Origin: Sinohyriopsis cumingii
Taxonomy: Eukaryota; Mollusca; Bivalvia; Unionida; Unionidae
Assembly (NCBI GenBank): GCA_028554795.2
Contig: JAPYKE020000037.1
Coordinates: 6,532,501 to 6,596,500, forward strand
Direction of reading: 5' to 3'
DNA: 64,000 nt
Shown here piece after piece: positions 284 through 58,977 of this stretch. The notes under the pieces were generated by a model. That model was not told the origin of the DNA, ran no database searches, and saw only the letters and a program-made list of their open reading frames with translations. The translations under genes were made by a program, and so were the position numbers. The number at the start of each line of letters is the position of its first letter. Positions within the stretch are counted from its first letter, which is position 1.

Positions 284-361
284 GTAGACCAACTCTATAA
301 AGGAAGATATGATCCTGATATATTAATCCATGTCAGGATTGGTGGATTCGTAATTTTCGAG
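284..361 (+). CDS. ADAMTS-like metalloprotease, exon 1 in window
   Basis: A 26-codon exon, phase 0 at both ends, between a TTCATAG acceptor and a GAG|GTAAAA donor. It reads VDQLYKGRYDPDILIHVRIG and then GFVIFE. In M12B (ADAM/ADAMTS reprolysin) catalytic domains this is the stretch after the first long helix, where a strand of the form 'I.V...G..I.E' follows 'D..Y'. The assignment is by family pattern and by the five later exons that continue the same fold. Upstream exons are outside the window. The next recognised exon (6406) starts in a different phase, so a short linker exon is missing between them. Confidence 0.7.
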
Positions 362-844
362 GTAAAATATATTTAAATATATAGCTACCTGCACGTCATT
401 GAGTGTTTCCGTTATAGTGTACGTTTTGTGGGTGAACACCCGTTTAAATCAGATATTTCATTTCAAAATTGTAACATTTAGGAAAGGAAGACTAAGATAT
501 TACTTCCATCATATACAAGTTAGGATTGCTGCTCCTGCTAAGCATGCGTACGTTTCTACATCAGCTGGATATATCTTTGATAAATTTATTAGAGAAATAT
601 TCAGATTGACTAACTTTTCATTACAATACTAGTTTGTTAATTTATGCTACTCTTATTCATCAAACCTAGTTACAAAGAGTTAGCGTTACCGGGTGGGGTA
701 AACTAAAATACACACAACATACACTAGAGATAGCACCTCACTGATATTATTGTTTCTTTTTTGTTGTTGAATACGTGTTGCGGTTCTCATTTTGTCGCTT
801 CTACGTCATCTTTATGCTTCTTGATAGTACAAAATCTATAGCTC

Positions 845-3585
845 CAATATGTATCAAATTGCACCAGGTGGTGCGATTGTGTGCGATATTCGGTTTCAAT
901 AATGACGCGATTCAGTGATGAATTTGTGGAACGTTTGAAGCATTTGTTCTGACATTGACCTTGACCTTTAATTGTTTTCCACTATCGGAAAATCTTCTTT
1001 CTGAGTTGCTTTCTGACATACAGGTGACGTAACCCGATCATCTCAACAGTGATTTAATTAGCAGGCAGCAGTTGCCTGGAAGGCCAATCCGCCTGAGAAC
1101 ATCTGTATATGGGAACATGCCCTTGTGTCTTATCCTAAAACGTTTCCTCTGAAAGTCTATGTGAAGTCAGCCATGGGGCTGGCACGATGTCCAGTTTTTG
1201 CAGGGACACAGAAGGGTTATCAATGCAATGACTTGCTGACTTTCAGTTTTGTTTGCCAACTGATCTGCCCTCAAACTAAGGGATACGCATGCTTCATATA
1301 CGGCCTGCACTTGGCAGTGATTGGCTGAGGCATGTGATCGTGTCCACAGTCACGGTGTTTGTTCATTACTATGAATATCGGCTCTACGCACGTCTTGTGT
1401 GGTATCGGTTGGTGCCTCACATCTGTTTTTTCAACACTGTTTGCTTCATTGAAATTGTCACAAGTCGCAGAGAAATACTACGCATGTCTAATAAGGCATT
1501 CAGTGATAATTCGCTAACAAATAAGATATTATTAACAGAACTTGCTCTTGGCCCAAAGTCTCTTCAAATATAATGACTTGACATTATGCCAGGATATACT
1601 GTCGATCACAGCGTCATAATCACGGACGGCATCAGTACGTAAAGCAAAGAAGAGCATGCTGAAGAGTAGTGAGACTAACACACCGCTTTGCATTGCCCCA
1701 CTGATGCATGATAATTGTTTTGTTGACTTGATATCCTCCACTAGCAAGCGAGGGAGCGAGCGAGAGATCTAAGAACTGCTGAATCATTACAATGAATTTC
1801 TCAGAGTAACCAAAATCTTTTAAGATGCACCCACTGAACACTGTGCCAAATGTGTTTTTACGGTCGATCTATGTGGCATTTATTGTTGAGTTTTGTTTCT
1901 TGCTCTTTGCAAACATTCATTACAATACATACGGCTCTGATTGATGTCGCAGGCGATTCATAATTATGATTAGGATTTTGTCAGCTATGGACAGTACGGT
2001 GATGCCCCTATGCATACTGCTTTTTCTTTCACTAATGCAGGTGAAAGAGGGATGTATACTGGATTCCGTAAGGTAGAGTTGCTTGAGTCGACATTGAATG
2101 GAATAATTCAGTCAGTTTATGTGCCACGTGAAATAGTCAAGCTATGTATACGTTTACTGGTGTACCGTCTCCACCTGTTGTTTCGAGTCGACATCGAGAC
2201 AATTGGTTTATATGCTTATGTCAGCTTCGGAGGTCCAACGTGTGATATGCTTATTTTCACATGGTCAGTGGCTTCCTCGCTGATATATAACTGTTAACTG
2301 ATGATGTTGCTGAAGTGTTCTGTCCATCTTTGAAACATATGTTCCTTGTATTTGAGTAGTGTGGGAATGTCGTCACTCATTATTGGAGACGTTCGAAATG
2401 ACTGTGGCACGTAGACGGTTTTCATAGCATCACATATATTGTGTATGTCATTCCTGCACTGGGCTGAATGAATCACATTTATTGCTCAGCGATAAGTCTT
2501 CTAACCATCTCATTTTTCATTGGACATCCATTTTGATGGTTTTGAAGGCTGTCTTCTTGGATGATAAAGTTCTGTTTACTAAGCAGTTCTTCTGTGGCTG
2601 TCGGAACTCATTCGTGAGTCTTTGTAGAGCAGAATCGATCGCTTCACTATAGTTGCAATGTTTACTTAGGGTGCAGCCGAGGGTTTCGTATGCACTTGAC
2701 AGCAAAGCGTCTCTGAGGGATGCCCAGTTTTATTCTAGCCTATCAAAGGTCATGTATATTGCATCTAGTTGGATGCACATTTCGTTAACAAATGTGTTTT
2801 ACATTAATATGTTTCAATTATGAAATATTTCGCGTTAGTTTCACTGATTTGCCTTTTAGATGCTGGCAAAGCTGCACCTAGATATTGAGCTTAGAGCCTA
2901 GTTTTCTGTGGTCAGTTCAGCATTCGGTATTTATGAATGCGTTGGGAATGATGTAGTATCCAGTGAAATGACAGTTCGTGGAAGGTTTGTGCCAACAAGG
3001 AGTCTTGTTTCGGTTCGGCTAGTGAATGTTTATGTTAGTCATCCGGACGTAGTGTTTAGATCATTTCCAATACGTCCCCATTATAATGATTTTGACCGCC
3101 GTTGGTTCTTCCGCCATAAATTCTCAAAGATTTCCAAACAGTTATCCTTGGTCTCACATTAGCCGCACTTGCTGGAAACATGCCAGCGATGATAGTTGCA
3201 TGTCTTTCTCCTTAAAGTGGGAGTCTCATTTTCAGTAGGCTGTCGTTCACGCCCTTTGGTAAATTTGTGAGCTTGCCCTCATGCCATGCCTTGGTAGCAA
3301 TCCCGATAAATAGCTTCATGTCGCTTTTAATGAATTTGGACACTCCAGAAGAAGATATTGCAGGCTCCTACTCCGGTGAGCTATTCTTCCTCAGCTATCC
3401 TTTGCTAGCCCAGGGCAGCAATTTGATTGGAAGTGACCCATTCAAAGATATGGAGATATGGATGTCCAATCTGTTCATTATTTTACTAACAAGAGTTGTT
3501 ATATTCACTGGTCGATCTGCTGATGTTTTTTTTTTTTTTTCATTTCGTGTGTCTATGCTCCAGGTCTCCATGATGGAGAGATAAT
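845..3585 (-). mobile_element. Degenerate antisense LINE (endonuclease plus reverse transcriptase)
   Basis: Read on the - strand, broken frames follow the order of a non-LTR retrotransposon ORF2. An endonuclease stretch near 3200-3300 reads LTNLPKGVNDSLLKMRLPLK. Next come linker segments at 2517-2750 (WASLRDALLSSAYETLG) and 2294-2476 (RWTEHFSNIIS). RT segments at 1632-1841 (LKDFGYSEKFIVMIQQ) and 1532-1747 (SGVLVSLLFSMLFFALRTDA) follow, and then C-terminal pieces near 950-1110 (TDVLRRIGLPGN, LLR.SGYVTCM). Many stops and frameshifts make it dead. It sits in an intron of the metalloprotease gene, in opposite orientation. The ends are approximate and no poly(A) tail or target duplication was found. 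Its family differs from the three CR1/L2-like copies in this window. Confidence 0.75.
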
Positions 3586-5150
3586 GTCATACATTGAATG
3601 CAAATTAAATTTAAATGATAGGACGTTGCGCAGAATCACCCTCACCTACACCTGACCACTCATGCGTGAATCCCAGTGTCAAGAAAATTTTGAGGCGTCT
3701 GGAGAGTGATGCCCATGAACTGGATGAGCACCAGTTCCTACTGAACCTTTATTGATGTATATGTTGTCTACGCAATTTGTACAGCTGCTCTACACATACG
3801 AATTGACTTTCAAATGGAACTTGGTGACACTATCCATCCTTGGTCAAACGTTACAGAAACCACTTTATACTGTTACTCAACTAATTCAAGCGTACACTGA
3901 CCTGACACTGATTCATCTTTATACTTCGTGAGATAGGGAAGTATATTATGTATACAAGACACTGAAACTAATAAGACAAATATAAATGTATGGTAGGTGA
4001 AATATTACCTGAAGAGGAGGCTCAAATATTTACCGAAAATATGTCTAGTTATTTTTTGTGGCAAAAATTGATATTACATTAGCCGAGGAAGTGGATGTTT
4101 TGCAGCTATATTCCATAACGGAACATTAGGATACACGTATACGTAACAAAAGTAGCCTAACTTATCAAGAGACCGTCGAAACGTACAATATATTTACTGT
4201 GGGAAATAAATAACGGCACAGATTGGAGTAGGTACAAATAAACAATCCATTACTATAATCAAATTGTACTGCTGTATAATGTTGATTTTATATGAGTAAT
4301 TAATAATATCATGAAGGATATATCAATAGCTACTGTGAGCCTGTCCTTCCATTAAAAAGCTTATTTATATTTTGGGGGGATTATTTTTGTGTATTTGTGT
4401 TTGTGAGCGACAATGAGAGGATATCTGAGAAAGTGTATATCGTTAAATAAATGTTTACTACGCCTGGAAGGTTAAGAGCGGAAGATGAAACATGATCGGC
4501 GTTGCTGAATTAACCGTTATAACTTGGAAGTTCTATGGATGATATAACCTCTTTGTACACGTCCTGAACATTTTCTGTGTTTTCATAATGTGGAATATAC
4601 ATTATGATATGTTGGTTCCATTAACTGTATTGTATCAATGTATAGGTGTTATGTTCATTATATGTACTGGGTCAGTTATAAATACAAACTTTGCTTCAAT
4701 TATCGGTTCAATTATGGACAGTTATATGTACAAACTTTGGTGTAAGTTTGGAACAAAGGTTCATGCTGTGATGCATCCCCCGTCTCAAGCAGTATATTAC
4801 AACCTTTTCAGTTAATATAAATGCCACCCTGTCAATAAATACTAAATATAAATTTACATAAATTATTTCACTCTCAAACATAAATATATTTTCATTTGTC
4901 TATCTATTTATATTTCGCACATTATTTTCAATACCTAATTCATATTTTATACCTAGATATCGCATCAGATAGAGATAGTTGTATACTTATAGTACCTATA
5001 GGTCACGTAGTACAAATAGTTCAAATAGTAAATATAGTGCAAATATCATACATATTGCAACTTGTATAGAAAAGTTGACTTAGGACAGATAATTTACGCA
5101 GGAGAGTTCCGTCACATAATACACAAGAGTTAAAATAGAGCATATGGCTC
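3586..5150. other. Intron sequence without recognised features
   Basis: Low-complexity AT-rich intron. Short frames such as the one at 4588-4815 have neither codon bias nor family resemblance. A short coding-like run near 3650-3755 could be the 5' untranslated part of the adjacent LINE. No exon could be defined. Confidence 0.4.
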
Positions 5151-5161
5151 ATATAGTACAA

Positions 5162-5480
5162 TCTGTGTTTGTGTGTTTGTGATCTGGACGTTTAACGTAG
5201 CTTTAACATGTTTTTCAGTCATATCGCTAGGATGTCTGCAGTTTGGTACTTTATAATGATATCTAGCACCGGGGCATCATGCCGCTGACATTAAGCATCA
5301 TGACCCACCATGTCACATTATCTTGTCAGCAGACCGTCCTTTCGTAACACTAACCTCTTAATGCTTAGCGTCAAGCGAGGCAACTGTTAGAACCATTTTT
5401 CCTCCCTCTTTGGTATGACCCGACCTGGGTTGGAACCCTCAACCTCCCACTCTAATCACATATGCCACCGAAGTTGAATT
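5162..5480 (-). mobile_element. tRNA-derived SINE, copy 1
   Basis: An older copy of the four-member SINE family in this window. The tRNA-like head is at the high-coordinate end and is eroded here. The body carries the shared core CAGTCATATCGCTAGGATG, and the low-coordinate end is a decayed GT-rich tail. It is flanked by a perfect 11-bp target-site duplication, ATATAGTACAA, at 5151-5161 and 5481-5491. That proves retroposition and fixes both ends. Confidence 0.88.
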
Positions 5481-5491
5481 ATATAGTACAA

Positions 5492-6405
5492 ATAGTTTAC
5501 GTAGTACATATAGTTCAAATTGTATAGGGGGTTAACATAATACTGATATCGGTAAAGAGAACAAAGATGCCATTATGTTATTATATATAGTTTATTTCAT
5601 ACGAAGGTCATGTACAGAACATTTATGAATTATATAGCATGAAGTGTAATTCTTCTTTTATATATCAACTGTTTTGTTGCCTTATGCATACCTAATATAT
5701 TATATAGAACTTGCTTCTCTTCGTTGAACCCTTTTAACGTTAGGTGAACCATGACAGCAAAACCAGTTCAAAGGATAATCTCTCACAGCTTTTTGAGCCT
5801 GTTCAAACACAGGATGAATTTGGCATAGTACCAAAAAAGAAATAATGAATTGAATTTAACAGAACAAACTGCAACCATTAATTTTATACAGTCCGAAAAT
5901 CAGAGTATATTTTATACACGAATCTGCTAACAACAAAACTAGTTCACATGCACGATGTGAAGGAACAAGGCGATATAATGTTACAATCATCTGAACCTAA
6001 AGTTAAAAGAGGATATCAGATTGGGAAAAAATTGCTTTAATACTTTGCAATTTAGAAGCTTTCCTTTGTTGAATCAACTATTTCTCTTCGATGCAAAATT
6101 CAAATACTTAAAAATTTCGTTTCAAACTATTCATTGCCATGGAAGCGTAATACCGAATGACTTACTTGTTATACTGTCTCCATAACTCTTCCTCTAGTCT
6201 TCTCTATCTCTTCCTGTCTGTATTACTAAACACATTATATGTTTGTGTTTTAAATATATATGCTTCATAGTCTCATATCGCTAGTTTTATATGGATATAG
6301 TTCTGTAACTAGCATCAATAAATGAAGAACACGAATTGCTATTTCGTTTCATCTGTTTCGTTTTTCTTTAAAGTGGGAGGCACATTTTCCACATCATTTC
6401 TCTAG
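5492..6405. other. Intron sequence leading to exon 2
   Basis: AT-rich intron with no recognisable element. It ends in the pyrimidine-rich acceptor CATCATTTCTCTAG. The linker exon expected between exons 1 and 2 could lie here or in 3586-5150, but no candidate fitted both phase and sequence. Confidence 0.4.
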
Positions 6406-6531
6406 AGTGCATACAGTTAACGGGACTAAATCGATTAATGCAAACTTGTATATTAAGGATCTTATGAGCTGGGACTCAAATAATGCACTTACGGGACATC
6501 AGGAATACGACCAAACTATACTCTTTACTCG
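6406..6531 (+). CDS. ADAMTS-like metalloprotease, exon 2
   Basis: Exon of 126 nt between TTTCTCTAG and CG|GTAAGT. In frame it contains NANLYIKDLMSWD and EYDQTILFTR. Reprolysins have here a helix of the form 'aL..F..W', then a loop, then the strand 'DhamLfT'. It ends with two bases (CG) that are completed by the first base of exon 3 to give Arg. Its start needs two carried bases, whereas exon 1 ends in phase 0. That mismatch is the evidence for an unseen linker exon. An alternative acceptor at 6415-6416 would need one carried base. Confidence 0.75.
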
Positions 6532-7951
6532 GTAAGTACATGTAGTGAAGGAATATGATGACTAGGCTCGTGATACACGAAGATGGGGTTCAAACAAGTT
6601 ACGGAATCAACAAATATGCCTTTCAATATTATATCAAGAAAGCTTAATAAATTGTAAAATCGTTGTACCTCACATAATACTATAACATGAAAAGTACTTG
6701 ACTCCCATTCTATCAGCATGTTTAAGCCTAAGAAACTGTCGTAAAGCATCTAGAAACCATCGAATGAAATTCAGCTATGATTCAACTTCTTCCTTGATTG
6801 TCTGAGAAAAGATGCAGAGATTAAATATTGAACAAGGACCTAATAGTTTCTGGTTGCGTGTGTATAGTTATAGCAATTTGTGAAGTAGATGTGATCTTAA
6901 TGAAACAAGTATAGTAAAGAAGGTTTTATAACGATTTAGACGTTGGCCTGAATAGGTCTGCAAAGCAGACTATGGACATTTGGAATAAACAATAATATAA
7001 AATAGGTGGTGACATAAATGTAAGGTCGTGGGAATTGTAAAATGAAATCCATATCACAAAGACGCAATGCAAGCACATTACCAGTACGCTGCTAAAATTA
7101 GATAACTGTTGATTTTATTATCATTGTTATTGATGTTTTTCATCTTCTTCTTCTTCTTCTGTTAGTATTATCATTATTATTATTACTATTAGTAGTATTA
7201 TTAGTAGTAGTAGCAATAATAGTAGTAGTAGTGGTAGTATCAGTAGTAGTGGTGGTAGTATTAGTAGTAGTAGTAGTAGTAGTAGGGTAATATTAGTCAG
7301 CGTTATTAAGTCATTATAAATAAACAATCTCTCCCAACCTATTAATACTCTTTCCATCAGCGTACAAATTGTATGAATGTTATTCTTTGCGGACATATCG
7401 CAAACTTGTCCCATAAACAGTGATTCATATTTTCACCCAACTTAGATATATCCCGTCAAACAAGAACTTAGTACTTGGAGCGGAAAAGTGAACCTAAGTT
7501 CTTCAATACTTAATAATCACAATAATACCAAAATAGTGTTTTAGCTACAAAATAATAAACAAGAAACACATTGCAATTAATGGTGTAAAAAGGTATACTG
7601 TACCTCTCACTTTATATCTGATCAAAAAAATAATGATTGCACAGACTGTACTTAGAATGTTAATGAAATAATCATATTTGTCTCAACTATATGTTAAAAT
7701 CTAAGACATTACAATGACCAGGATGTGTGTCGAATGTTTTCTTTCAGAACATACCAATTTCTTAACCAAGGCTAGACTAAGATCACCAGTAGATAGCTTT
7801 AGTAAAAATGACGATGAATTTAGGCCTTTGCTCCTCTATTGACACACACGGACAAATGGCATAGACACAAAATAAATTAAACATCAATTGCAGTTTGTTT
7901 GCAAAATTGTATGTTGTACAGATATACATAAGTGCTGTATTTTATATTTAG
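6532..7951. other. Intron 2 of the metalloprotease gene
   Basis: AT-rich intron holding the trinucleotide array at 7142-7287 and nothing else recognised. It ends in ATATTTAG before exon 3. Confidence 0.5.
7142..7287. repeat. Trinucleotide microsatellite (TTC, TTA, TAG)
   Basis: A compound imperfect array: (TTC)n at 7144-7160, then mixed TTA/TAT, then (TAG/TAT)n to about 7287. It makes a Leu/Ile-rich false frame on the - strand. Confidence 0.9.
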
Positions 7952-7995
7952 ACACTCGATGTATTTAAGTGAAACTGATCATACGCGCACTGCCG
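7952..7995 (+). CDS. ADAMTS-like metalloprotease, exon 3
   Basis: A small 44-nt exon between ATATTTAG and CCG|GTAAGT. The first base completes Arg from exon 2. The 14 full codons read HSMYLSETDHTRTA. The last base joins GT of exon 4 to give Gly, so the protein runs TAG then LSTGAFIC across the junction. This matches the reprolysin order 'T..D......TAG.ay...C'. Phases on both sides agree exactly, which is strong support for so short an exon. Confidence 0.75.
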
Positions 7996-9425
7996 GTAAG
8001 TACAGTCTCTCTCTATCTCTCTCTCTCTCCTCATCTCTCTGTTCTTCTACCTCTCTGCGAGCAGAGTTAAATGTACCATAACAATTATACTATACTAGAT
8101 GCAAACCATGAACTGATTTATTATTTTGGAGTCACTAACCAATAACAAGCTGTTTCCAATTGATTTGGTAGAAAATGTTTAAAGGGGTATATAATGTGTT
8201 AACATTCTAGACGTACAAAGTCAAAACGATCATTTTTGCCACATAAACAGTCTCAGATTAATTTTAGCGGTTATATTTTCCATGATTCTGTACGTTTACA
8301 ACTACTGAATATTTTTTCTTCTTTATGACGTACAATTTTAGAAGTCATACTTATTGTTAATTGACCAACACATTTGATTTATAGTTACATCAAAAACACT
8401 GATATGCAAAATGTTTAATATGCTTATTTTATAATATTAACGACATCAGCCATATACCATGGAATTTGCTTATTTGTTGTGCTCTACTAGGTTTAATGTT
8501 TACCAGATATTAAATGCCATGTCTTGTCCTAACCCTACTCAACTGAATCATTAATCTTAATTTGTGTTTGCACATAAGGCTTCTCTCAAGTCTAGGGACT
8601 TCATATTGTGGAGCATAGGATTTTATATGAACTCAATAATTAACATTTATAATCAATACATTGTTGCCGATATCAAATTCTTATAGACTTTAGCACCAAC
8701 AGCTTTCCTTCACAAAATGATCTACATTCGAACTGAAAAGGAAAACATAAAAAAAAACAGATGGCAGCGGGACGAGCCACACAAATTGTATAAAATATTA
8801 CAAATATACATTTGACAGCATGTTATGAGCAGCACAAGTTATATAGTTAGGACTGTTTATCCAGGGGTTGAAACGACCGATTTTCATAGACATGCTCGCA
8901 AACCTAAGTACGTATATATACATTTTATCCTTGTTATCATGCTAATGTTTGTGCAGAGGACAAAATAGACTTATAATGAGAAAGGCGTAACTTTATTGCT
9001 TCATCAGACTGAATTCAATATCATTGCTTAAGTCATTAAATATATTTTGTTTCTATGTGATCAATAATATAAACGATATGACATACACTGGATGATGTCC
9101 TAGCTTATATTTTACCATGCGTAATTATTTTATTTTTTAATGAATAATGGACATGGAAAAATGCATATTCAGTATTGATAAATGATAAATTGATACGTAA
9201 AATGCATAAAACTGGATCTTAAAGATACATTATCTCAATTGTTAACTATATCAAAACTTTATGAAAAATTGAGAGAAATTTGTTTTAATATTTTTCTTAT
9301 GTATAATGCACATTTTTAAAAATATATTGTAATTTGATATATTGCTAAAGAATATTCAATATTTCATCAGGACTCAAACAATATAATACAAATTTATTGC
9401 TTTATACTTATATATATAGGTTAGT

Positions 9426-10102
9426 GCATTTGTATGGGAAAATATAAACAAGTTTTGGGATGGAATAGTGCACGATCTTGAGAGTGCAGTATATCCTTCC
9501 GACAAAACGAGTTCATATTTTCCCATACAAATGCAGGTAAACGTTTTATTATATGCTCATTGTTTTATTCTACTAAGGTTTAATTATATAAACAAAATAC
9601 ACTACAAGAAACAACGTAAATGAATGAATGCCGTATTCTAAACTAAATACACAGGCGCATATTTATCATTACACAATGACATCATTATTAATGCGCACAT
9701 AACTCCGCCCAGATAAATTTGAACTTTGTCGCGCGCTCGACATGACTTTCGAAAGAAAATGGCGTGTCCAGCTAAAATTGGAATTCGCAGTCATATTGTG
9801 AATGAATGCGCATTGCAACAACTTTTCCATTTCATCTGGAGTGAATATAGTTTGGTATTTTGTTTCGATTCGACGAAGGTTTGTGATTTTGGACTTGATT
9901 CATCTGTGCAAATTATACTTGAAAAACGTCGGATTGAAACGGAGCGGGAGAAGCTTGTTTACATCTGTAAATGCTTTTCTGTTTCTGTCATTCAATGTTT
10001 GAAATCATAATGTGGGAAAACAATGAAGTCTTGCAATTGCAATTATCAAAAAGACGCTATGGAATTTAATGCTTATTTCATTTTGAGTGCAGTAAGGAAG
10101 AT
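9426..10102 (+). repeat. Dispersed repeat with inverted-repeat arms, copy A
   Basis: It begins with a perfect 20-bp inverted repeat: GCATTTGTATGGGAAAATAT at 9426-9445 and its reverse complement at 9515-9534, separated by 69 nt. About 570 bp of unique sequence follows, including CGCCCAGATAAATTTGAA near 9707-9724. The whole unit recurs collinearly at 39063-39732 in the same orientation. A 94-codon frame (9726-10010) lies in it but is not kept open in the other copy, so it is probably not coding now. No family name is recognised. Confidence 0.8.

Positions 10103-11780: not shown

Positions 11781-11784
<4 letters not shown>

Positions 11785-11869
<85 letters not shown>
11785..11869. repeat. (AT)n microsatellite
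   Basis: Pure AT dinucleotide array of about 42 units within intron 3, 200 bp upstream of exon 4. It produces Tyr-Ile false frames on both strands. Confidence 0.97.
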
Positions 11870-11870
<1 letters not shown>

Positions 11871-12074: not shown

Positions 12075-12183
12075 GTCTTTCCACGGGAGCGTTCATATGT
12101 GTGCCTGGTAAGAGAGTTCAGCTTGTTCATTCGACTGATTATTTTAAGACGACGTCCGTTGCAGCACACGAACTTGGTCATAG
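12075..12183 (+). CDS. ADAMTS-like metalloprotease, exon 4 (first half of zinc site)
   Basis: Exon of 109 nt between CTTCCTTCAAG and CATAG|GTAAGT. It reads (G)LSTGAFICVPGKRVQLVHST, then DYFKTTSVAAHELGH, with AG carried over to make Ser with exon 5. HELGH holds two of the three zinc-binding histidines and the catalytic glutamate of metzincins. The preceding 'G...G.iC......v' strand and the 'A.HELGH' helix are typical of ADAM/ADAMTS catalytic domains. The exon-exon join with 17158 restores HELGHSLGALHD in frame. Confidence 0.93.
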
Positions 12184-13723
12184 GTAAGTAAAATTTTGTA
12201 CCCCATCCTCTCTTGTGAGTTCTCCTGCTTTCCAATGAAATTTCCTTTTACTTGATTATAGGTTTCAGTATGCGTAAATATTGACGTAAAGTTGCATATG
12301 TTTTCCGTTTTACTCCATGTACAGCAGTTTCTCATCTTTCGGCGAGAATGCTTAGGGTACAGCAATGCAATGGACATACAATACGTAAATCGAAATAATC
12401 AGCGAACCTTCTCAATTTGAGACATTTGATTAGCCATCTTTTAATATAGTTACATTTATAAAACAATTGTATTCTCCGCGAGAACATAATTTTGATTTAA
12501 ATAAGACTATGAAAAAAGTTGGGAACTATTCGCTAACAGTTAGCTAAGAGATATCAAGACTAACAACATTTAATTGTATCCATTTTGTGTCCTTTATGAC
12601 CTGTTTATTTATAATTAGAGACAATATTTACATTTGAAAGATTTGAACAAAAAAACTCATACAAGTACATGAAATAGCAGCGTTTTCTGAATATTTTAAC
12701 ACAGCAGAACCATGTTGATTAATTTCCGGGAGATTCACTATAGAAATAACACAAATGTTTCTAAACAATTTGAAATGCTAATGTAAAACATTTAATAAAT
12801 ATGTGCGAAGTCTGCAGATAACCTCTTTTTAATTTTCAGATTTTAAAATGTCCAGTTTAGAGGTATAGTTTAAGACTTTGGGATATTCTAATATTTAAAA
12901 ATTTGTCTTTAAATACATTATAGCATTCAATTTATTGCAAAATTATTTCTTCGTATAAATGTTCACAAAAATATCTAAAACAATTTGTTCTGTATTGCAG
13001 ATAAAAAGAAGTTTAAATATCAATGGTTACAAAATCATTGAGTTCTTAAGAGGTAAATGTGAATTTGTATTGTAGTGGATGTGAAAAATGAACTTACAGA
13101 CTTTTATAAGGCAAAATTACACACGCCTGACTTGCAGTTAGGACCGAAAATATGTATCATTATGTATATTCATTTTGGTGTTCTTAGTCATCATATAGTT
13201 TGTCTATTTATGAAAGTATGTTGTGTTTATTCCCCAATTACGTTGACATAAAAAAAATTCACAGGAGTTTAGATAAAAGATTGTATCCTGTAAGAAACCA
13301 TTTTGTTATATTCATATAAGTATTGACTTTAATTTAAACATTTTTTAAAATGATTATATTTGTCTAAATAATAAATAGCATAATTTTATAAAATCTTATA
13401 TTAAACTATGATGAGCAACAACAAATTATTCCCAACGTTACATTTCATTTATGGTAGTAAAAACGTAGATTTATAAAGTGTAATTGTATTATTACTTCTA
13501 CAACAGGAAATATTAAATTGAACTTTATTTTCATCTAAATTACAAATATACAAGCTACATATTTGTATATTAAGATAAATTGACTTATGGTTCAAAACAA
13601 TAACAAATACACTAAATATATTCACCCTCTCTTTAATTGTTATTAATATTTAACATATATTTAAGTGTCAAATAGCAATGGATCTAATATCTGATAATGG
13701 TACAATACATGAAATATATAAAT

Positions 13724-13730
<7 letters not shown>

Positions 13731-13814
<84 letters not shown>
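13731..13814. repeat. (AT)n microsatellite
   Basis: Pure AT array of about 42 units, roughly 90 bp upstream of the LINE copy. Confidence 0.97.
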
Positions 13815-13816
<2 letters not shown>

Positions 13817-13904
13817 TAAACATTAAATGTGAGTAGAGCATTGTTTAGAGAACCAACCCACCCATAAACATGGTCACATTTTATCTGGATTCTTCACAGA
13901 CCTG

Positions 13905-13983
13905 ATGATAAGATTCCACGGTCCTCCCTGTTATCCCATGAGACTGCATCAGATCACCTCTGCATTATATGCCATCCCTAACT

Positions 13984-14057
<74 letters not shown>

Positions 14058-16393
14058 AGAAACCTCCGTATGATAAATAGAACCAAACTAATGCATGACA
14101 TCCAAGCAAACCTAAAAACTTGCTTACCTCCTACCGCAGAACAACTCGATAACTGTCTGCGTTCATTACTTGAGAAACATGCCCTAGCTACCAAATGCAG
14201 AGTATCAATTCAAAAGTGTTCTCCATGGCTCCATGGTATAGCAGTGTTAGGGACCAGATTCGCACTGCTAAAACAGACCGCCGTAAAGCTGAGAGGCTCT
14301 GGCTTTCCATCAGACTCACTATTCATAAGCAAATCTATGAAGTCGCTAAGAAGAATGTCACAAATATAGTCCATGCAGCGAAATCAGCCCACTACACTAC
14401 TAAGGTCATGGAAAGGTCCAGCTGCAAAGAGCTCTTCGAGATTACTAACAAGCTAATGTCAAGGAATAAATCAACACCACTTCCAACTACCTTCTCTGCA
14501 GTCGACCTTCCGGACATGTTTGCAGATTTCTTCCGTGACAAAGTACAAACCATTATAGATAAGCTTCACACCACAATTTCAATTGACTCGTCGTCACCAT
14601 GCAGTTGGGATACAGAATTTGAGCGGCACCCATTAGCAGCATTTGAACCGGTCTATATGGATTTCGTACGTACAGTCGTGATGAAGAGTGCACCAAAGTC
14701 ATGTGAACTTGATCCAACTCCAACATCAGTGCTGCTTGAGTGCTTAGATCCAGTATTGCCCTCACTAACTGACGTTATTAATAGATCTCTCTCAGCTGGG
14801 GAATTCCCATCTTTTTTAAAAACTGCCATTGTAAAGCCTCTGCTCAAGAAACCAACACTAGACCATAACGTTTTAAAGCACTACCGCACAGTTTCTAATC
14901 TCCCATCCATTTCAAAAATCTTAGAAAAGGTTGTTCTATCCCAGCTTGTATCTCATCTAAATTCAAATCGTCTTTTTAGCAATGTACAATCTGCGTCTCG
15001 CCCTTGCTACAGTACTGAAACTACTCTTCTAAAAGTAATTAATGATATTCTCTGTGCGTTGGATAGCGGAAAGATTACAGTCTTCACCCTCCTTGATTTG
15101 TCTGCAGCATTTTACACAATAGACCACGATATATTACTTCACCGTCTCAAGCATATATTTGGCATTCATGATACAGCCTTACTGTGGTTCAAGTCCTACT
15201 TGGTCAACAGGACACAAATTGTATCTGCAAATGGAATACACTCCAGCCCAGTTGATCTATGTTGTGGGGTTCCACAGGGGTCTGTTCTTGGACCTGTTCT
15301 CTTCATTCTGTACACTCAGTCGCTTTCAAGTGTCATAAATCATCATCCAGCGTCTCACCAATTGTACGCTGATGACACCCAAATATACAAATCTAGCCAC
15401 CCAACTGAAGTTGATGCTACCACCCAAGGTGTAGAGAGGTGCATTTCTGATGTGAAATCATGGATGACATGTAACAAGCTGCAGATGAATGATGATAAAA
15501 CTGAGGCCATTCTGATCACAACACAAAGACTTTCTCATTCACATCCTTTACCTCAAACAATAAATATCAGCAACACCGACATTAAATTCACACAATCAGT
15601 ACGAAACCTAGGTGTTACTCTGGACAGTACTCACATTGCACCAACATGTCATGAACATATGGAAGGCTGGATATCTTGAGCTGAGACGCATCAGCTCAAT
15701 TCGCAAATATCTTTCAGTTGATGCCACTAAAAGACTTGTGTGTTCATTAGTACTTTCAAGACTGGACTATTATAACTCAATTCTGTCTGGTTCATCTCAA
15801 TATCTACTCCAGAAACTTCAAAAAAGTTCGAAACACAGCTGCTCGGATCATACTTAGAGTACCACGATCAGAGCACACCTCCCCGCTGCTATGTGCCCTA
15901 CACTGTCTATCCATTCGATCCAGAATCAAACACAAAATTTGTTCTCTGTGCTACATTTCACTGTCGGACTCTAGTCCAACGTACCTATCTGGCCTCACCC
16001 ATGTGTATACACCAGCAAGATACTTACGCTCCTCTTCTGACAATCGTATTCTCATTATTCCCACTATAAAAACAAAGTCATATGGACAGCGTTCTTTTGC
16101 ATACCAGGGCCCAGCAACGTGGAATAAATTGCCCACTGAACTTAAACACAAAGACACAGTGATCACATTCAAGAGGGCTCTAAAAACTCACTTATTTCGA
16201 CTGCAAGAACAAACTTAACGACCTAATAATGTTTCCTGCCTGAAATATTCTCAGCATGATTTTATTTTTTAATGTGTTTCTAATTTCATGTTGTTTGTTT
16301 TTGTAATAATATTATTATGTTTCTTTTCTTATAGGTGTTGTCTAATGTTGTAAAGCGCTTAGAGCTTCTAAATATTAGGCGCTATACAAAGTC

Positions 16394-16441
<48 letters not shown>
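13905..16441 (+). mobile_element. CR1/L2-like LINE, copy 1 (near-complete reverse transcriptase)
   Basis: A non-LTR retrotransposon of the CR1/L2 group, judged from the RT motifs and the tail. About 13905-13980 looks like the end of the endonuclease domain (a SDH-type stretch in one frame). The linker (14056-14200) and the main RT frame (14195-15679) follow. Motif A reads LLDLSAAFYTIDHDILL, and then come GVPQGSVLGPVLF and the active-site box YADDTQIY. The C-terminal domain continues in shifted frames at 15612-15857 and 16003-16218 (YTPARYLRSSSDN). The 3' UTR ends AAGCGCTTAGAGC...GCGCTATAC, followed by (ATT)n at 16399-16441. At least three frameshifts make it non-functional, but it is well preserved. 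An (AT)n array (13987-14055) sits inside the element. Confidence 0.93.
13987..14055. repeat. (AT)n microsatellite inside LINE copy 1
   Basis: AT array of about 34 units lying between the endonuclease-like and RT-linker parts of the LINE. It therefore arose or expanded within the element. Confidence 0.95.
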
Positions 16442-16442
<1 letters not shown>

Positions 16443-17157
16443 GTATCTGCGTAATTGAATTTATCATCAATTAGTAAGTTTTATACGATTCACAATCGAA
16501 CATTTTTAATCCAACAATTTTAGTGTGTATTTGTACACAATCAATTTATCCGAATGGGATTGCATGAAAATGATTTCGTTACAAATACTTTCCGTCAATT
16601 GTGCATATCAACGCAATGTGTGCAGTCTGATTTTGTTATATAACTGGATGGTGTGCACGTACTGTTCCAAACATTAATAAGATATTGAAACTAGTCGATG
16701 ACACATATACTTATGTATCGTTTGCGATATAAACTGTGGTTCAGTGAAGCACCATGTTTGGTTCAATAACCTTATATTAATAACAATAAAAGTGATGGTT
16801 TTTTAAGTAATATCATCCTTTCAATGTTATTTTTTAAGAACAATACATTAATAACAAAGACTAATTATATAAAAAGTAAGATATTTATTCAAATTATACC
16901 TGATCATTATGTCTGTGATAGATACAGTTTTACTATATATTGTATATGGTTCTGTACATACATCCTCTATAAATTTCAATTACCTGATGTGTAAAATATG
17001 TGACTATAGCATTGTTTACAGAAACAAAATACAATTTTTTTTTGTATTCTTCCATCCTGGAAATAATGTAAGGCACTAGCTGTCTATATATTGTGATCAA
17101 TCCAGGTTCTACATTTTGTACGGATTTGAAGATTCCTGCTTGAATTTTATGTTCCAG

Positions 17158-17328
17158 CCTTGGAGCTTTACATGACGGAGAAGTCAATTGTGCAGACTGT
17201 AAGGCGGAAGAGCGCTTTATTATGACTCCTATGGTAACAGTTTTCGATCCCAACAAGGATTACTCCAAGAACCCCTGGCTATTTTCAAAATGCTCCTTGG
17301 AGGCCTTTAAGAAGACACTAGCGAACAA
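17158..17328 (+). CDS. ADAMTS-like metalloprotease, exon 5 (second half of zinc site)
   Basis: Exon of 171 nt between TATGTTCCAG and AA|GTATGT. It continues (S)LGALHDGEVNCADC, then ERFIMTPMV, then NPWLFSKCSLEAFKKTLANK. LGALHD gives the third zinc histidine and the following aspartate of the HExxHxxGxxHD site. 'FIMTPMV' is the Met-turn region expected 10-20 residues later. 'W.FS.CS...f...L' is the C-terminal helix of the reprolysin domain. It ends with two bases (AA) completed by A of exon 6 to give Lys. Confidence 0.95.
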
Positions 17329-17588
17329 GTATGTAAAATATGTATAGAGACAAATATGCTAATAAACTGCATTGGTTGAAGATGTCTTTTCGTAAAGGTG
17401 CCTGTATAGAGACAAATATGATAATTGATGAAGAAGAACAAAGTTATTCACAGCAATTTGTGGAACCTGGTTGGTCTGTAGCCTCAGCATGTGTATTATA
17501 ATGTTAAAACAAGAAAATATAACATAAAATCCTTCGATCTATTGTATGTATGAACGTGAGTAGGTAGGTATTTAGCTAGGTACTTTGC

Positions 17589-17607
17589 ATATCTATCTAT
17601 CTATCCA

Positions 17608-17686
<79 letters not shown>

Positions 17687-17721
17687 ATCTATCCATCTCT
17701 CTATCTATCTATCTATCTATC
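17589..17721. repeat. Compound (TATC)n-(AT)n-(TATC)n microsatellite
   Basis: TATC repeats flank an AT array (about 17612-17683). It ends only 42 nt upstream of exon 6, so length changes here could affect the branch-point region of that intron. Confidence 0.95.
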
Positions 17722-17763
17722 ACGGTCTGTCTGTCACCGTGATTAATCCATTTCATATTTCAG

Positions 17764-17905
17764 AGATTGTGCAAAAACGAAACCTGTCTACACCAAACCC
17801 CAATCGGACGAATTGAACAAGTTTATGAGAAAACTGCCTGGCGAAAAGTACTCATATTCTATGCAGTGTCAACTCATCAACGGACGTGGCTCTACTTACT
17901 GTGGG
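17764..17905 (+). CDS. ADAMTS-like metalloprotease, exon 6 (disintegrin-like domain)
   Basis: Exon of 142 nt between CATATTTCAG and GGG|GTATGC. It reads (K)[19 protein letters not shown], then [19 protein letters not shown] and STYCG. 'LPG..Y....QC...fG....YC' is the signature of the disintegrin-like domain of ADAMTS proteases, which follows the catalytic domain directly. The phase agrees with exon 5 on the left. It ends in phase 0, as needed by exon 7. Confidence 0.93.
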
Positions 17906-18053
17906 GTATGCATCAAGTGTCAGTATGCGCAGTAAGAATGCATAATGATAACGACTAACACCCTCTCAATGTGCTCGCAAATCATATTTCACTCAAGGAT
18001 CATTTATGTGCAGTTTAGTTACAAACACTTTTGAAGCGAAGGATTAAGGAAAA

Positions 18054-18057
<4 letters not shown>

Positions 18058-18131
<74 letters not shown>
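18058..18131. repeat. (AT)n microsatellite
   Basis: Pure AT array of about 37 units. Confidence 0.97.
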
Positions 18132-18134
<3 letters not shown>

Positions 18135-19199
18135 GAGAATTTACAGTTGTGATTATATAGTAAGATACAAAATAAGTTATGTTAAAGTTAAAGTTTAAAA
18201 TAAATGCTAAAAAGTTTAGGATAAGAACTGCTTATATTTCAGTTTGTTATTCTGGGAGGCTGTAAATATTGATGCTTTATATTCCTAAGTATTGTCCATT
18301 ATGGTATGCAGTATTTACGGCTTCCTTAGAACCACCTTCTTCGTTTTTATTTCTTTCTTTAGCTTTCCACTTTCATTCCTTGAGTCCACTAATTATTGTT
18401 TCAACTGTTTTTTGGCAAAGTTCACTGATTCAATTTTCTCTTCCAACTACATTGTTCTTCTCACAACTTTAGATTTACACTGCTTTCATTAGATCGACAT
18501 TACGTTTATCGAACAGCATGGACACTATGGCAGATACTAGGATATTTAACCCCTCTCTCATCACTAATGAGTTAATGCCAGTTTCTATTTCGAGAAGTCT
18601 TTCTAGAGAATGGCAACACTACTCGCATCTTAACTAACCAAATCCCTGATTCTGAGTTTGTAGCTGACCTAGTAATTGGCCAGCGATTGTCTTTTCTAGT
18701 ACCAAGAAAATATAGTTCTTAGCATTGCTCATTTTGCCACAATAATCTGTATGGGTGCAGAGAGTTCTACACATTTAAATGCAGGGGATACAGTGACAGT
18801 GTTGAGTAAGTAATGTAGTTTGTGTTTGATGTCCGTGCAAATTGACACATGTTATACACAGAAGAAAACCAAACCACATATTCAGACTTATCTTGTTCAC
18901 AAATTTCGTAAAAGACGTAATCGAAAGATACACTGGAACCATATATTGCTCGATAAAATTCTCGAATTGCCTATTCTGATCATATTACTAATCGTGGCCT
19001 CCAACATAACCAGTATAATTGTGCTTCGTCTCACATCAGTCCTTAATATTCCTTCTTTGAACTTCAAATTTTAGTACCCACACTTGGAGACAAAATTAAT
19101 TTGTAAAAGCCAACACTGTACACATCATGATCATATTGTTAAACAGTAGGAATTCTGGCTCAGCCACAAATCATCACGGCTATTATACACAACATTTTA

Positions 19200-21063
19200 C
19201 AGCATGTAACTAAATAATGAACTCTTCCATGACAAAGTGCAAAATATTAGAGATAAGATTGACACCACAATTTCAATTGCCTTGTCGTCACCATACAGTT
19301 GGGATACAGAATTTGAACGGATACCATTAGCAGCATTTGCACCTGACTCTATGAATTTCGTACGTACAATCCGGATGAGGAGTGCACCACAGTCATGTGA
19401 ACTTGATCCAATTCCAACATTACTGCTGCTTGAGTGCTTAGATCCAGTATTGCCTTCACTAACTGATGTTATTAATACCTCTCTCTCATCAGGGAAATTC
19501 CCATCATTTTCAAAACCGCCATTGTAAAGCCTCTGCTCAAGAAACCAACAATAGACCATAACGATATAAAGAACTACCACCCAGTTTCTAATCTCCCATT
19601 CATATCAAAAATCTTAGAAAAGGGTGTTCTATCCCAGCTTGTATCTCATCTGAATTCAAACAGTCTTTTTAGCAATGTACAATCTGCATATCGCCATTGC
19701 CACAGTACTGAAACTACTCTTCTAAAAGTAGTTAATGACATTCTCTCTGCTTTGGATAACGGAAAGATTACAGTCCTCACGTCCCTTGGTTTGTCTGCTG
19801 CATTTGACACAAAATATCATGATATATTACTTCACCGTCTCAATCATGTATTTGGCATTCATGATACAGCCTTACTGCGGCCCAAGTCCTACTTGGTCAA
19901 CAGGACACAAATTGTGTCTGCAAATGAAATACACTCCAGCCCAGTTGATCTATGTTGTGGTGTTCCACAGGGTTCTATTCTTGGACCTGCTCTCTTTATT
20001 CTATACACTCAGCCGCTCTTAAGTGTCATATATCATCATTCAGTGTCTCACCAATTGTACGCTGATGACAGGCAAATATGCAAATGTAGCCTCCCAACTG
20101 AAGTTGATGTTACCACCCAAGGTGTAGAGAGGTGTATTTCTGATGTGAATTTATGGATGACATGTAACAAGCTGCAGATGAATTATGATAAAACGGAGGC
20201 CATTCTGATCACAACACAAAGACTTTCTCATTCACATCCTTTACCTCAAACAATAAACATCAGCAACACCAACATTAAATTCACACTCTCAGTACGAAAC
20301 CTAGGTGTTACTCTGGACAGTACTCTCATATTGCACTATCATATCATAAACATATGCAAGGCTGAATATCTTGAGCTGAGACGCATCGGCTCCATTCGCA
20401 AATGTCTTTCAGTTGATGCCACTAAAACATTGTTGTGTTCATTATTACTTTCACGACTGGACTTTTGTAACTCAATTATGTATGGTTCTTCTCAATATCT
20501 TCTTCAGAAACTTCACCTCCCCGCCGCTCTTTACCTTACACTGGCTATCCATTCGATCCAGAATCAAACACAAAATTTATTCTCTGTGCTACGTTTCATT
20601 GCCGGACTCTAATCCAACACACCTATCCGACCTCACCTATGCGTACACAAAAGCAAGTTAATTATGCTTCTCTTCTGACAATCGTACACTCTTTATTCCC
20701 ACTATGAAAATAAAGTCATATGCACAGCGTTCTTTTGCATACCAGGGCCCAGCAACGTGAAATGAATTTCCCATTGAACATAGACACAAAGGCACATTGA
20801 TACCATTCAAGAGTGCAATCAAAACTCACTTATTTCGAGTGCAAGAACAAATTTAAAGACACAATGTTTCCTAAATTAAATATTCTCAGTATGTTTTATA
20901 TGTTTTCTAATTGCACGGTGTTTGTGTAATCATATCATTATATATGTTTTATATCTTATAGGTGTTGTATAATGTTGTAAAGCGCTTAGAGCTTCTAAAG
21001 ATTAGGTACTATACAAAATCATCATTATAATTATTATTATTATCATTATTATTATTATTATTA
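19200..21063 (+). mobile_element. CR1/L2-like LINE, copy 2 (5'-truncated)
   Basis: Same family and orientation as copy 1. It starts within the linker before the RT (19237-19527: SWDTEFERIPLAAFAP, LPSLTDVIN). RT frame 19752-20612 contains GLSAAFDTKYHDILL, GVPQGSILGPALF and YADDRQICK, so the residue after the catalytic YADD is changed. An internal deletion near 20510 removes part of the C-terminal domain. The 3' UTR again ends AAGCGCTTAGAGCTTCTAA, with an (ATT)n tail at 21023-21063 running into (TAG)n. It is truncated and frameshifted. Confidence 0.92.
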
Positions 21064-21110
21064 TTAGTAGTAGTAGTAGTAGTAGTGGTAGTAGTATTAG
21101 TATTATTACA
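21064..21110. repeat. (TAG)n run after LINE tail
   Basis: Imperfect TAG/TAT triplets continue the ATT tail of LINE copy 2 and probably derive from it. Confidence 0.8.
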
Positions 21111-24100
21111 ATATTACTCACCTTGAGATGGAAAAAACAACCTGAAAATCTGCTGGTAGCTGGAAGTAAAGGACATAAAGAAATAAAGAAAGCATACGAA
21201 ATTAATCGTCATATTTAATTATACACTGAGTGATGCGTTTAATGAGTTTTTCCAATTAACTTTGTAAGAAATGTCTTTCTATGACGGAGGTAAATATTTT
21301 ATAGAGGAAAGATAAAATTGTTTACGAAACATGGTATAAAATGGTTTCTTATATGTTATTTAAAATCTCAAAAATAATGCAATCTTCTACTTATATAATG
21401 TGCTCCTCTGTTAATGTTTGTTGTGTCGTCGTTTTCAAAACCTGTTTTTACTAAAGCCCATGCATTTTGTTTTCAATCAGTGAACATGGTATTGTTCTGT
21501 TAATTAGAAAATCAAACGACGTTCAAGAAAGCAAACGATATTTGATGTTATTTTACATCACATTTATACTTCCAGCTCTTGCTGCCTGATACAGACTAAA
21601 ATGCAGTTCTTGCAGTTGATTATTACAATGTTGCAAATGATCGAATACAATTTATTATGTTGCAACAATGAAAAAAATAAAAATTAATCTGTGTTACTTA
21701 ATTTTAATAAATGACCACAGCAATGTATTGCGATAATTCTATAATCAACGAGTTATAGAGGCATCTACTGTACTGAACTGAACATAGCTGCAAATTTGTA
21801 AACATGAAATGTTATTTCATCTTCCTTTGTCAGATCAATAAAACAAACTCTATGCAATGGCAGCTTCTCATATGTATGAGTGACATTGCAAATATTTATA
21901 ATGTGGAGAGAACAAATTATTAATGATAATCTTCAAATAACAATTAATGACTAAATAATACAACAAAACAGGAAGATGAATCATTTTGATTTATCTAAAA
22001 GTATTTCATTACCTTATACGTAGCTATACTTACCTGTCCAAATATTAGAAAGAACTGGATAAATGCAAGACAGCTGTTATTCGCTTGACCCGCTAAATTA
22101 AACATAAGCAGTTATATATCTGCCTTCTAGACTCATATGGAGGAATTAAAAACACAAATATTGGTAGAAAGATGAAAGATTAATAGGTCATGTGGTGGCT
22201 TTAAATTTTTATGAAAAGGTTTTGAAGATAACGTTACTGCTCACGATGCTAGTTTTTCACAGTTGCAAGATATAATTACCACTAACGAAAACAGTTTATG
22301 ACATTACAAAGGAAAGAAATGAAGTCACAGACAAAACTAAAAGAAAGACAGAAATAAAGCGAAATAGGCATGAACGAATGTATGGTTGTGTCTATAAGAA
22401 CCTCATTCGATTGGTATTTCTGTGATAAGATTAAAGATCATAACCTGATGAACTCTTGAAGATAAGTTAACTGCTAAAATCGGAGATTTTAAAATAAACA
22501 CCATGGTTTCAACAGAAACGGCTCACGTATGGAACACTGGTAAAGAAGTATTTTGGGTCACAGTTAGCAGAAAGAAATTTAGAATACCATTTGAATTCCA
22601 GACACTAAAACATCATTATCCATATCATCACGTGTTCTTTCGAATGAGGTAAGATTGGTAATTACACATATTACATTATTTGAAGCACAGAAAGTGCAAG
22701 CCAAGATTTTGAATTAGTATATAATGCATTACAGTAAGATAATAACATTGACAATGGTTAAGATGGTACATTTTAAATTATATCGATACAATACTATGGA
22801 ATGACTTACAATGCCTACTTCTGGTAAAGAAAATGGTATAAAAGTCATTAAAGTACCATCTTTGCATTGTAGTCATGCAACTCACAATGCAAAGACAAAT
22901 TAAAATAGTTGATGGCATCACTGAAAAACCTCTTACCTTATTCCTGATCCAATAGGGCTTATATTAAACATTTTTATTGGTGTGAATGTAGCTTCAGTAA
23001 ACCAATAAAATGGATCCACGTATTCGTATTTGTTATTTCCATGTGATACATATAATTTTTTGATTTCAAAGTAAGGATACAGTACTGCATGGATGTTGCT
23101 TTTTTAATGTTGAATGACTTATGCAAGGCAATACATTAATAGTTCTATTTATTACTGTTCCTTGAAAAGATACAGTTAGTTGTTGAAAATTTTGAATTTA
23201 CAGATGATAATGTGTACTGCTTAATAAATATTCTTAATTCAGATCACTAGTTAAATTATGGATTATTTTGAGAAATGTTTCTTCGCTTTTATTCCCTAAC
23301 GAAATATAGGTCACTTTTTTAGACCGACTTAGCATAGTTGCATACCTTACGCGATAACTTTACTGAGTTACAATGCAGTAAAAATGTGCTTGTTTCGTTT
23401 TTACTTTACCGTCCTGAGAAACATGAATCATTGAAACGTTACATTAGACAAACGCATGGTTTTCCTTGTCGATTACTGTTGCATTTAACAAAGCTTAGTT
23501 TCTTGATTGCGTTGCTGCTTTTTGTATCAATTCTTTACTTTGTTTTCTTTAAAGTTATTCATCTCTGTTCGATCTGGAAATACATGTTTAAACAAAAAAG
23601 ACCTTACTTGTAGCTTGGCTACTATGCAAGTTTCACTTAATAATGTTCCAACAGAACGTATGATCTGGTTATCATCGAAGGATTAAACAGCTGAAGTGTT
23701 ACTGCTTTACACCAAATATTTCACTGGGGAAAATGGTTTGAGTCAATATTAATGTACTCCGGACATGTAGTTCGCGTTTGAATAGGTGGATTTTATCAAC
23801 GAATTTGACCTGCTTTAACTTAAGTCTTCGTTGCGTTTTCCATGGGAATGTCTAACAGTCTGACGTATGTATTTTAAATTATTTTACTTTTTTCTCAACT
23901 CACATAACTCTAATACTATTATATATTTAAAAAGGTTTCCTAAAGTTTCGATCGAAACATTTTTTTCGTCGGGGGAATGAAAGATTTAAATATGCAAAAA
24001 CAAACTCTTAACATTCTGTACAAACAATTCGAGACTCTTACGTAATATAACGACTACAGGAAATTTACTCCAAGAGATATAACAGCACAAAGTTGAGCAA

Positions 24101-24495
24101 ATCTAATAGACAAGCTGTTTATTTTATCTATCGCATTGCTAACCAGTAAGTTTTGACCTAATTTTAAGTGTGAACAAAATGCGGAAACACGCTCGGTGAG
24201 ACATTAACGCTGTCAATCCGATTGTATAAATAAGTTTATCTCCAGCTGAATTACTATCATTATCATAACTTTTGATTCATCGCGAAGTTAATTGCAGTTC
24301 TCGAACTACTGAATGAATTGGTGTGGGACATATGTATCAAATTAAGCATTGATTGTCTTTGTAACGGTATGTGCCTGCATCTGGGGTCTAGCTTGTAGTT
24401 TTGAGGGGCAGATATAGAGGGTGACCAGAGTAATAGATCACGTAACCCCATACAACTTGATGTAAAATTGTTTGTTTGTTATGTTTCCCATAAAG

Positions 24496-24606
24496 GTACT
24501 GCCTGGAAGGATTTGTCGGTTCATGTATTGTACGCATCCGACGACATTCAAATGCATGGATGTATATTTTAATGCAGCTCCTGGTACAACGTGTGGAATA
24601 AATATG
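24496..24606 (+). CDS. ADAMTS-like metalloprotease, exon 7 (disintegrin-like domain)
   Basis: Exon of 111 nt, 37 codons, phase 0 at both ends, between CCCATAAAG and ATG|GTAATC. It reads VLPGRICRFMYCTHPTTFKC, then MDVYFNAAPGTTCGINM. ADAMTS disintegrin-like domains have here 'C..lwC......C.....aa.GT.Cg...WC'. The final WC is supplied by exon 8. The acceptor context is only fair, but phase and cysteine spacing fit well. Confidence 0.9.
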
Positions 24607-25026
24607 GTAATCTCTGTCTCTATCTTTTTGTGTGTCTCTCTTCTCCCTCTGTCTCTATCTCTGTCTCTTTCACTGTATGCATGTCTTCCTCTTTCTGCTA
24701 ACAATTATGAAGAGCATCATGGCTAGATTTCTAGGCTGGACTAAACTCATTAATCAGATGACAATTTGTAAAACATGGATATGATGTAAGCAACGTAATT
24801 TCTAATAATTAAATTCTGTTTGGTTTTATAGGAAACCATTTAATGTCTTGTACCTTAATTTCAAGTTAAATATATTCATGTAATAAGCTATATGTACTAA
24901 ATTGCAAATCAATCAAAGTAAGAAGCATATGTGTGTATTGCTTCAAAATATGAAGGTTCGCTTTCCATTATTTTCAAGTATACATAAATTATCACTGTTT
25001 ATATATTTTGTTCTCTTTCTGTGCAG

Positions 25027-25068
25027 TGGTGTCAGCAAGGATTGTGTATTAAGAAAGGTCTGAAATAA
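25027..25068 (+). CDS. ADAMTS-like metalloprotease, exon 8 with stop codon
   Basis: After TTTCTGTGCAG the frame reads WCQQGLCIKKGLK and stops at TAA (25066-25068). 'WC..G.C' closes the disintegrin-like domain. In full-length ADAMTS proteins a thrombospondin type 1 repeat would follow, but here the chain ends. The stop is immediately followed by GTGAGT, a good 5' splice site, so the exon probably ends at 25068 and the 3' UTR is spliced. A plausible 3' UTR exon starts at 25511 after TATTTTCCAG, with ATTAAA at 25588-25593. Confidence 0.85.
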   Translation, partial: WCQQGLCIKKGLK

Positions 25069-26418: not shown

Positions 26419-26445
26419 TGTCTTCTAATGAGCCTCACCGAGTTG

Positions 26446-26720: not shown

Positions 26721-26727
26721 CGAGTTG

Positions 26728-46375: not shown

Positions 46376-46386
46376 AATGGAATTGT

Positions 46387-58936: not shown

Positions 58937-58977
<41 letters not shown>

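Follow-up and report, generated by a model that had tools for sequence, protein, structure and literature searches.

Zinc endopeptidases of the M12B family are produced as secreted zymogens whose propeptide is removed, and they operate through three zinc-binding histidines, a glutamate-activated water molecule, and a cysteine-rich domain that aids substrate binding. Human ADAMTS-1, -4, and -5 additionally contain TSP1 repeats and other domains toward the C-terminus. To our knowledge, MIG-17 itself possesses no TSP1 repeat. This Caenorhabditis elegans protein is presented in one report as an ADAMTS-family protease at basement membranes (PMC7710118), and another attributes a prodomain, a protease domain, a disintegrin-like domain, and a cysteine-rich domain to the Sona-PA form of Drosophila Sona, which it describes as most similar to MIG-17 (PMC4989167).

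The locus considered here lies in a window of 64,000 nucleotides (the whole stretch of DNA that was analysed) from the freshwater mussel Sinohyriopsis cumingii, in which the original prediction had placed an eight-exon, ADAMTS-like protease gene. The eight exons are confirmed as observed. As judged from their sequence, they very probably represent the 3′ portion of a freshwater mussel gene that is normal and probably functional and that encodes a TSP1-less M12B zinc endopeptidase, and its product would probably be a further, intact member of the mussel-expanded, TSP1-less, ADAMTS/MIG-17-like M12B family. The finding is correct but ordinary, in that this type of protease occurs in many copies in freshwater mussels.

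Exons, introns, and mobile elements

When joined, the eight exons (Table 1) total 855 bases and read as 284 residues with zero internal stops. All seven introns start with GT and end with AG, and the phases agree at all seven junctions, including the six that had been predicted (6531/7952, 7995/12075, 12183/17158, 17328/17764, 17905/24496, and 24606/25027). The phase agreement asserted for exons 2 to 8 is thus borne out, and the junction of exons 1 and 2, for which there had been no earlier claim, is in phase as well. The start of exon 2 at the latter junction (361/6374) was fixed from the sequence; an alternative in-frame acceptor at 6380 scored 70.9 vs 72.9 and gave an alignment two residues shorter.

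Table 1. Coordinates of the protease exons and associated features in the window.
Feature	Positions	Strand	Length (bases)	Start phase	Content
Exon 1 (first in the window, but not in the gene)	284-361	+	78	0	VDQLY..VIFE; phase 0-0
Exon 2	6374-6531	+	158	0	WEAHFPHH..ILFTR
Exon 3	7952-7995	+	44	2	HSMYLSETDHTRTA
Exon 4	12075-12183	+	109	1	LSTGAF..AAHELGH; first half of zinc site
Intron splitting the zinc-binding motif	12184-17157	+	4,974		Reverse-transcriptase frame inside
Exon 5	17158-17328	+	171	2	SLGALHDG..FIMTPM..KTLAN; third His and Met-turn
Exon 6	17764-17905	+	142	2	DCAKTKP..STYCG; ADAMTS_CR_2 begins here
Intron with second reverse-transcriptase copy	17906-24495	+			Frame 19476-20612
Exon 7	24496-24606	+	111	0	VLPGRICRFMYCTHP..CGINM; bulk of ADAMTS_CR_2
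Exon 8, last coding	25027-25068	+	42	0	WCQQGLCIKKGLK, then TAA (25066-25068)
Possible polyadenylation signal	25143-25148	+			First AATAAA 3′ of the stop; consensus match only

The zinc motif in the joined translation reads HELGHSLGALHD, a complete HExxHxxGxxHD, and is followed downstream by a Met-turn, FIMTP. The codons for HELGH end at 12181, two bases short of the end of exon 4, and the intron separates them from SLGALHD at the start of exon 5. Residues H125, E126, H129, H135, D136, and M152 are invariant between the window protein and six relatives. Both the split zinc site and the roughly 5-kb, element-bearing intron had been predicted, and both are found: within this intron, a frame at 14174-15679 matches a reverse transcriptase (RVT_1, PF00078, 2e-30).

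A same-strand frame in the same intron (15751-16218) had no Pfam match at 0.001. The frame in the intron following exon 6 belongs to the same reverse-transcriptase family (4.3e-23), and the two intronic elements share 90% identity across 1.3 kb. Across the window, this element occurs as three plus-strand copies, ~85-91% identical, at 14529-16439, 19223-21066, and 50831-52383, the first two being the intronic ones. A decayed reverse-transcriptase frame (54513-55001; RVT_1 2.2e-5, under the cut-off) lies ~0.9 kb from a 48-base tandem repeat of 6.6 copies (55861-56179), which also shows longer periods of 96 and 144. Other repeats include a dispersed one of ~700 bases (9416-10102 and 39053-39730, 75% identical) and a ~300-base family at 5164-5451, 26444-26741, 46053-46397, and 58959-59283, whose aligned copies are 71-87% alike. 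Since the tRNA-Pro called by ARAGORN (59209-59280, minus strand) falls inside a copy of this family, it is probably part of a tRNA-derived SINE and not a tRNA gene; no RNA families were detected in the window at the gathering threshold. Finally, the G+C-richer right end contains two minus-strand DNA_pol_B_2 frames, at 60214-60642 (1.9e-5, just under the cut-off) and 61256-61618 (1.2e-6), together with two adjoining frames without a match. The frames at 60214-61618 are probably remains of a Polinton/Maverick-like element.

Protease identity and the case against chance

With exons as short as 42-171 nt, of which the two shortest gave nothing significant when searched singly, the gene could be viewed as a chance assembly of small frames picked to resemble a protease. 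Against this reading, tblastn was run with 16 relatives, hand-picked from 120 listed and excluding the joined sequence, with any match at E up to 10 being counted. Best E values were 4e-5 for exon 1 (10 of the 16 relatives), 1.6e-11 for exon 2 (14 of 16), 7e-12, 1.6e-20, and 2.7e-17 for exons 4, 5, and 6 (all 16 in each case), and 4e-10 for exon 7 (nine). Exons 3 (0.54, two relatives) and 8 (0.17, three relatives) are too short for significance alone by this method. For six relatives, the matches run in exon order along the plus strand. Outside the exons, the best E in the window was 0.14, and no second copy of the gene was found there, all off-exon matches of the relatives being at or above this value; the same 16 relatives searched against the reversed window gave a best E of 0.044. 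Relatives to which the original prediction had no access match six of the eight exons, and a chance assembly is scarcely credible.

Exons 1, 2, 3, and 8 were also approached by enumeration, across the permitted interval, of every open AG..GT segment (AG..stop for exon 8) with a suitable length and phase. Candidates were scored against segments from the 15 relatives of alignment A2, with 14 used for exon 1, all 15 for exon 3, 12 for exon 8, and, for exon 2, only those with a long enough segment. In this comparison, which is not fully independent because the alignment whose columns delimited the relatives' segments included the joined sequence, the proposed exon always ranked first (exon 1 of 60, exon 2 of 23, exon 3 of 163, and exon 8 of 916), and the runner-up was always that exon lengthened or shortened. 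For exon 8, the score was 32.4, followed by 14.8 for a shortened exon 8 and then 12.8. Moreover, some relatives' gene models appear to break at the window's exon borders: the P0011 model starts at the V of exon 1, where P0018 and P0004 join, and the end of exon 7 is the end of the P0011 and P0006 models.

Pfam profiles bear on the order of domains. Scanned singly, exons 4-7 gave best E values of 0.054, 0.052, 0.0013, and 2e-5, respectively, each under the curated cut-off, and exon 2 alone had no match. The joined protein matched Reprolysin (PF01421; 6.7e-11, 43 bits vs a cut-off of 20.8) and then ADAMTS_CR_2 (PF17771; positions 1-69 of 69, 7.5e-16, 58.8 bits vs 27.3), so the M12B order that had been claimed, with a profile search of the joined exons as the proposed check, holds above both curated cut-offs. 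PF25379 was a weak non-match at 0.9.

In a sequence search of the PDB, the top match was ADAMTS-1 (6.4e-19, residues 47-281). Venom metalloproteases were among the matches, both here and in the structural comparison below, but they ranked below ADAMTS-1, -4, and -5, and a snake-venom-type label is also contradicted by the ADAMTS-type cysteine-rich domain; the venom-type database names of the molluscan proteins P0037 and P0056 we take to be automatic naming. Folds were compared by means of an AlphaFold model of relative P0013 (pLDDT 77, pTM 0.72), for which chains of ADAMTS-1, -5, and -4 filled ranks 1-12 in the PDB (E 5e-17 to 1e-15). Over the full chain, these alignments had TM-scores that were low by query (0.29-0.32) and 0.52-0.59 by target at an rmsd of 16-18 Å, and because of these values the placement of domains in P0013 and ADAMTS is taken to disagree. 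Against catalytic domains alone (e.g., ADAMTS-5 at ranks 36, 45, and 48), the corresponding values were 4-5 Å and 0.76-0.77.

The two ends of the gene and the ADAMTS label

What had been read as a whole eight-exon gene is the 3′ part of one. Longer relatives, such as P0013 (554 aa), have ~270 residues N-terminal of the VDQLY position. The ..YFSYIMNG that precedes VDQLY in close relatives was not found in the window, and a search for an upstream exon in bases 1-283, conducted with relatives that contain it, gave zero matches. Since no relative matches these bases, the gene is considered to begin left of base 1.

The C-terminal end, by comparison, is held in common with seven mussel relatives (P0009, P0010, P0012, P0013, P0015, P0018, and P0021), which stop a few residues past [WK]C....CV, just as the window protein stops past WC....CI; the Dreissena protein P0030 does so too. 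Additional cysteine-rich sequence past this end is present in three of the 15 aligned relatives (P0035, P0040, and P0047), none of them Unionida by name. Given the common end, exon 8 most likely carries the gene's natural stop. It is conceivable that the gene instead encodes a full ADAMTS whose last exons, with the TSP1 repeats, were missed, a reading with which the domain order agrees through the cysteine-rich domain and which could draw on the GTGAGT immediately 3′ of the stop codon. Two self-written, tryptophan-based TSP1 patterns, however, had zero matches in the six frames of the window, and the seven mussel relatives end at the window's stop position. Similarly, Pfam recorded no TSP1 in the joined protein or, at 0.01, in relatives P0010, P0013, and P0030, and a full ADAMTS is very improbable. 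A match to a loose cysteine pattern for TSP1 (27741-27764, minus strand) has no tryptophans, adjoins a stop, and was rejected.

The description of the protease as ADAMTS-like is, accordingly, correct in part. An M12B protease with an ADAMTS-type cysteine-rich domain after it, encoded by short exons in transposon-rich DNA, is present, but no TSP1 repeat, at least one of which marks an ADAMTS, was found in the window. Because the repeat was looked for and not found, ADAMTS is used here for a type of domain and not for membership in the group.

Mussel relatives, possible short form, and likely function

A first protein search yielded six Sinanodonta woodiana proteins of 41-57% identity, the best being 57% over 82%, and a profile search yielded 128 proteins. 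Among the 120 listed, the top matches were mostly molluscan and, by name, at least 20 were from Sinanodonta, at least 15 from Potamilus streckersoni, and at least five from Dreissena, counts that favour the Sinanodonta group because Sinanodonta sequences were abundant in the query alignment and a length limit applied to candidates. Under this length limit, which applied to the protein searches, long TSP1-bearing proteins would escape. Sinanodonta and Potamilus are classified in Unionida and Dreissena in Myida. A midpoint-rooted tree was built from 50 chosen rows (the window, 19 Sinanodonta, 11 Potamilus, five Dreissena, and 14 others), of which 12 were under half filled and whose long branches meet away from the window. 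The window protein falls inside a 31-row set (support 100/99) that includes every Sinanodonta and Potamilus row and, the window apart, consists entirely of Unionida, and inside an 11-row subset (99/97) with seven Sinanodonta and three Potamilus rows; the choice of its closest sister is less firm (86/78).

To call the gene hidden was an overstatement: it is split, but its relatives in Sinanodonta and Potamilus are already annotated as peptidase M12B-domain proteins. Those proteins (ACJMK2_007429, 007435, 007439-007441, 007443, and 007514; CHS0354_007217) jointly align over all 284 residues, have the same zinc site and Met-turn as the window, and belong to the same 11-row set. They differ from the window protein in being 52-57% identical to it in alignments, and the P. 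streckersoni CHS0354_007217 model has an insertion of ~20 residues between exons 6 and 7.

Five Sinanodonta relatives bear the locus tags 007435, 007439, 007440, 007441, and 007443 and come from contigs recorded at one and the same length, a run that is taken as a cluster and that suggests tandem duplication. Dead copies are to be expected from such duplication, and the locus is rich in transposons, so the window could conceivably contain a recent, open but dead duplicate of a mussel M12B gene with its left part or promoter lost. Such a pseudogene is unlikely, given eight exons without a stop, a frameshift, or a non-GT-AG intron, and a zinc site and Met-turn that are complete. The preferred reading is, again, that of a normal gene.

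The region after exon 6 varies among the relatives. In five Sinanodonta models (P0001, P0002, P0003, P0005, and P0007), exon 6 is followed by other tails in place of exons 7 and 8, which are consequently not confirmed in that subgroup, and the partial records P0004 and P0008 extend no further than exon 6. Past its own exon-6 donor (17903-17935), the window reads VCIKCQYAQ and then a stop, resembling the tails of P0001 (VCTKSMCQCAQ) and P0003 (VCTKCTCQFAQ), and the nearest poly-A signal 3′ of this unspliced tail is at 18199. The tails may come from inaccurate or unspliced gene models, from coincidence, or from a shorter alternative product. One speculative and rather unlikely scenario is that Unionida have radiated a TSP1-less, ADAMTS-type family and that, in the window's subgroup, one gene gives rise to both a full and a short form. 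As part of that same scenario, the short form would arise by read-through of the exon-6 donor into the conserved tail VC[TI]K..CQ.AQ and would have no cysteine-rich domain. An unspliced form is best treated as a lead predicted from the letters, since the V-C start follows from a GTNTGY donor in frame.

As for the full protein, relatives suggest that it would begin with a propeptide, encoded by exons left of the window, followed by the reprolysin catalytic domain and the C-terminal, ADAMTS-type cysteine-rich domain. It would presumably be secreted as a zymogen and freed of its propeptide. The three histidines, whose residues are present, would then bind zinc, and the glutamate, likewise present, would activate water for cutting of the peptide bond. 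MIG-17 and Sona suggest, by analogy, that the cysteine-rich domain may help in binding the substrate or the matrix. By the same analogy, the product is likely a secreted protease that would depend on zinc to cleave a substrate outside the cell or in the matrix. Among the papers listed, titles and the beginnings of abstracts assign no role to the TSP1-less M12B family of mussels; one report places an ADAMTS transcript, named as ADAMTS only, among the shell-colour differences of a freshwater mussel (PMC12897141).

In practical terms, a reading of raw sequence recovered a gene of 42-171-base exons over 25 kb of transposon-rich DNA. The gene itself is one more case in the mussel protease family, and the protease family as a whole is a known one. 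With human ADAMTS-1, -4, and -5, the catalytic and cysteine-rich region aligns, and these enzymes also provide the top folds for P0013; their TSP1 repeats were not found in the window. A MIG-17 match from C. briggsae, P0068, is 31% identical and, unlike the window protein, also carries PF25379. Several of the molluscan matches, among those listed, are themselves named mig-17 or mig-17-like. Finally, MIG-17 and Sona, distant ADAMTS-type proteases of this short kind that are likened here by description, have the same propeptide, protease, and cysteine-rich order as that of the mussel protein.
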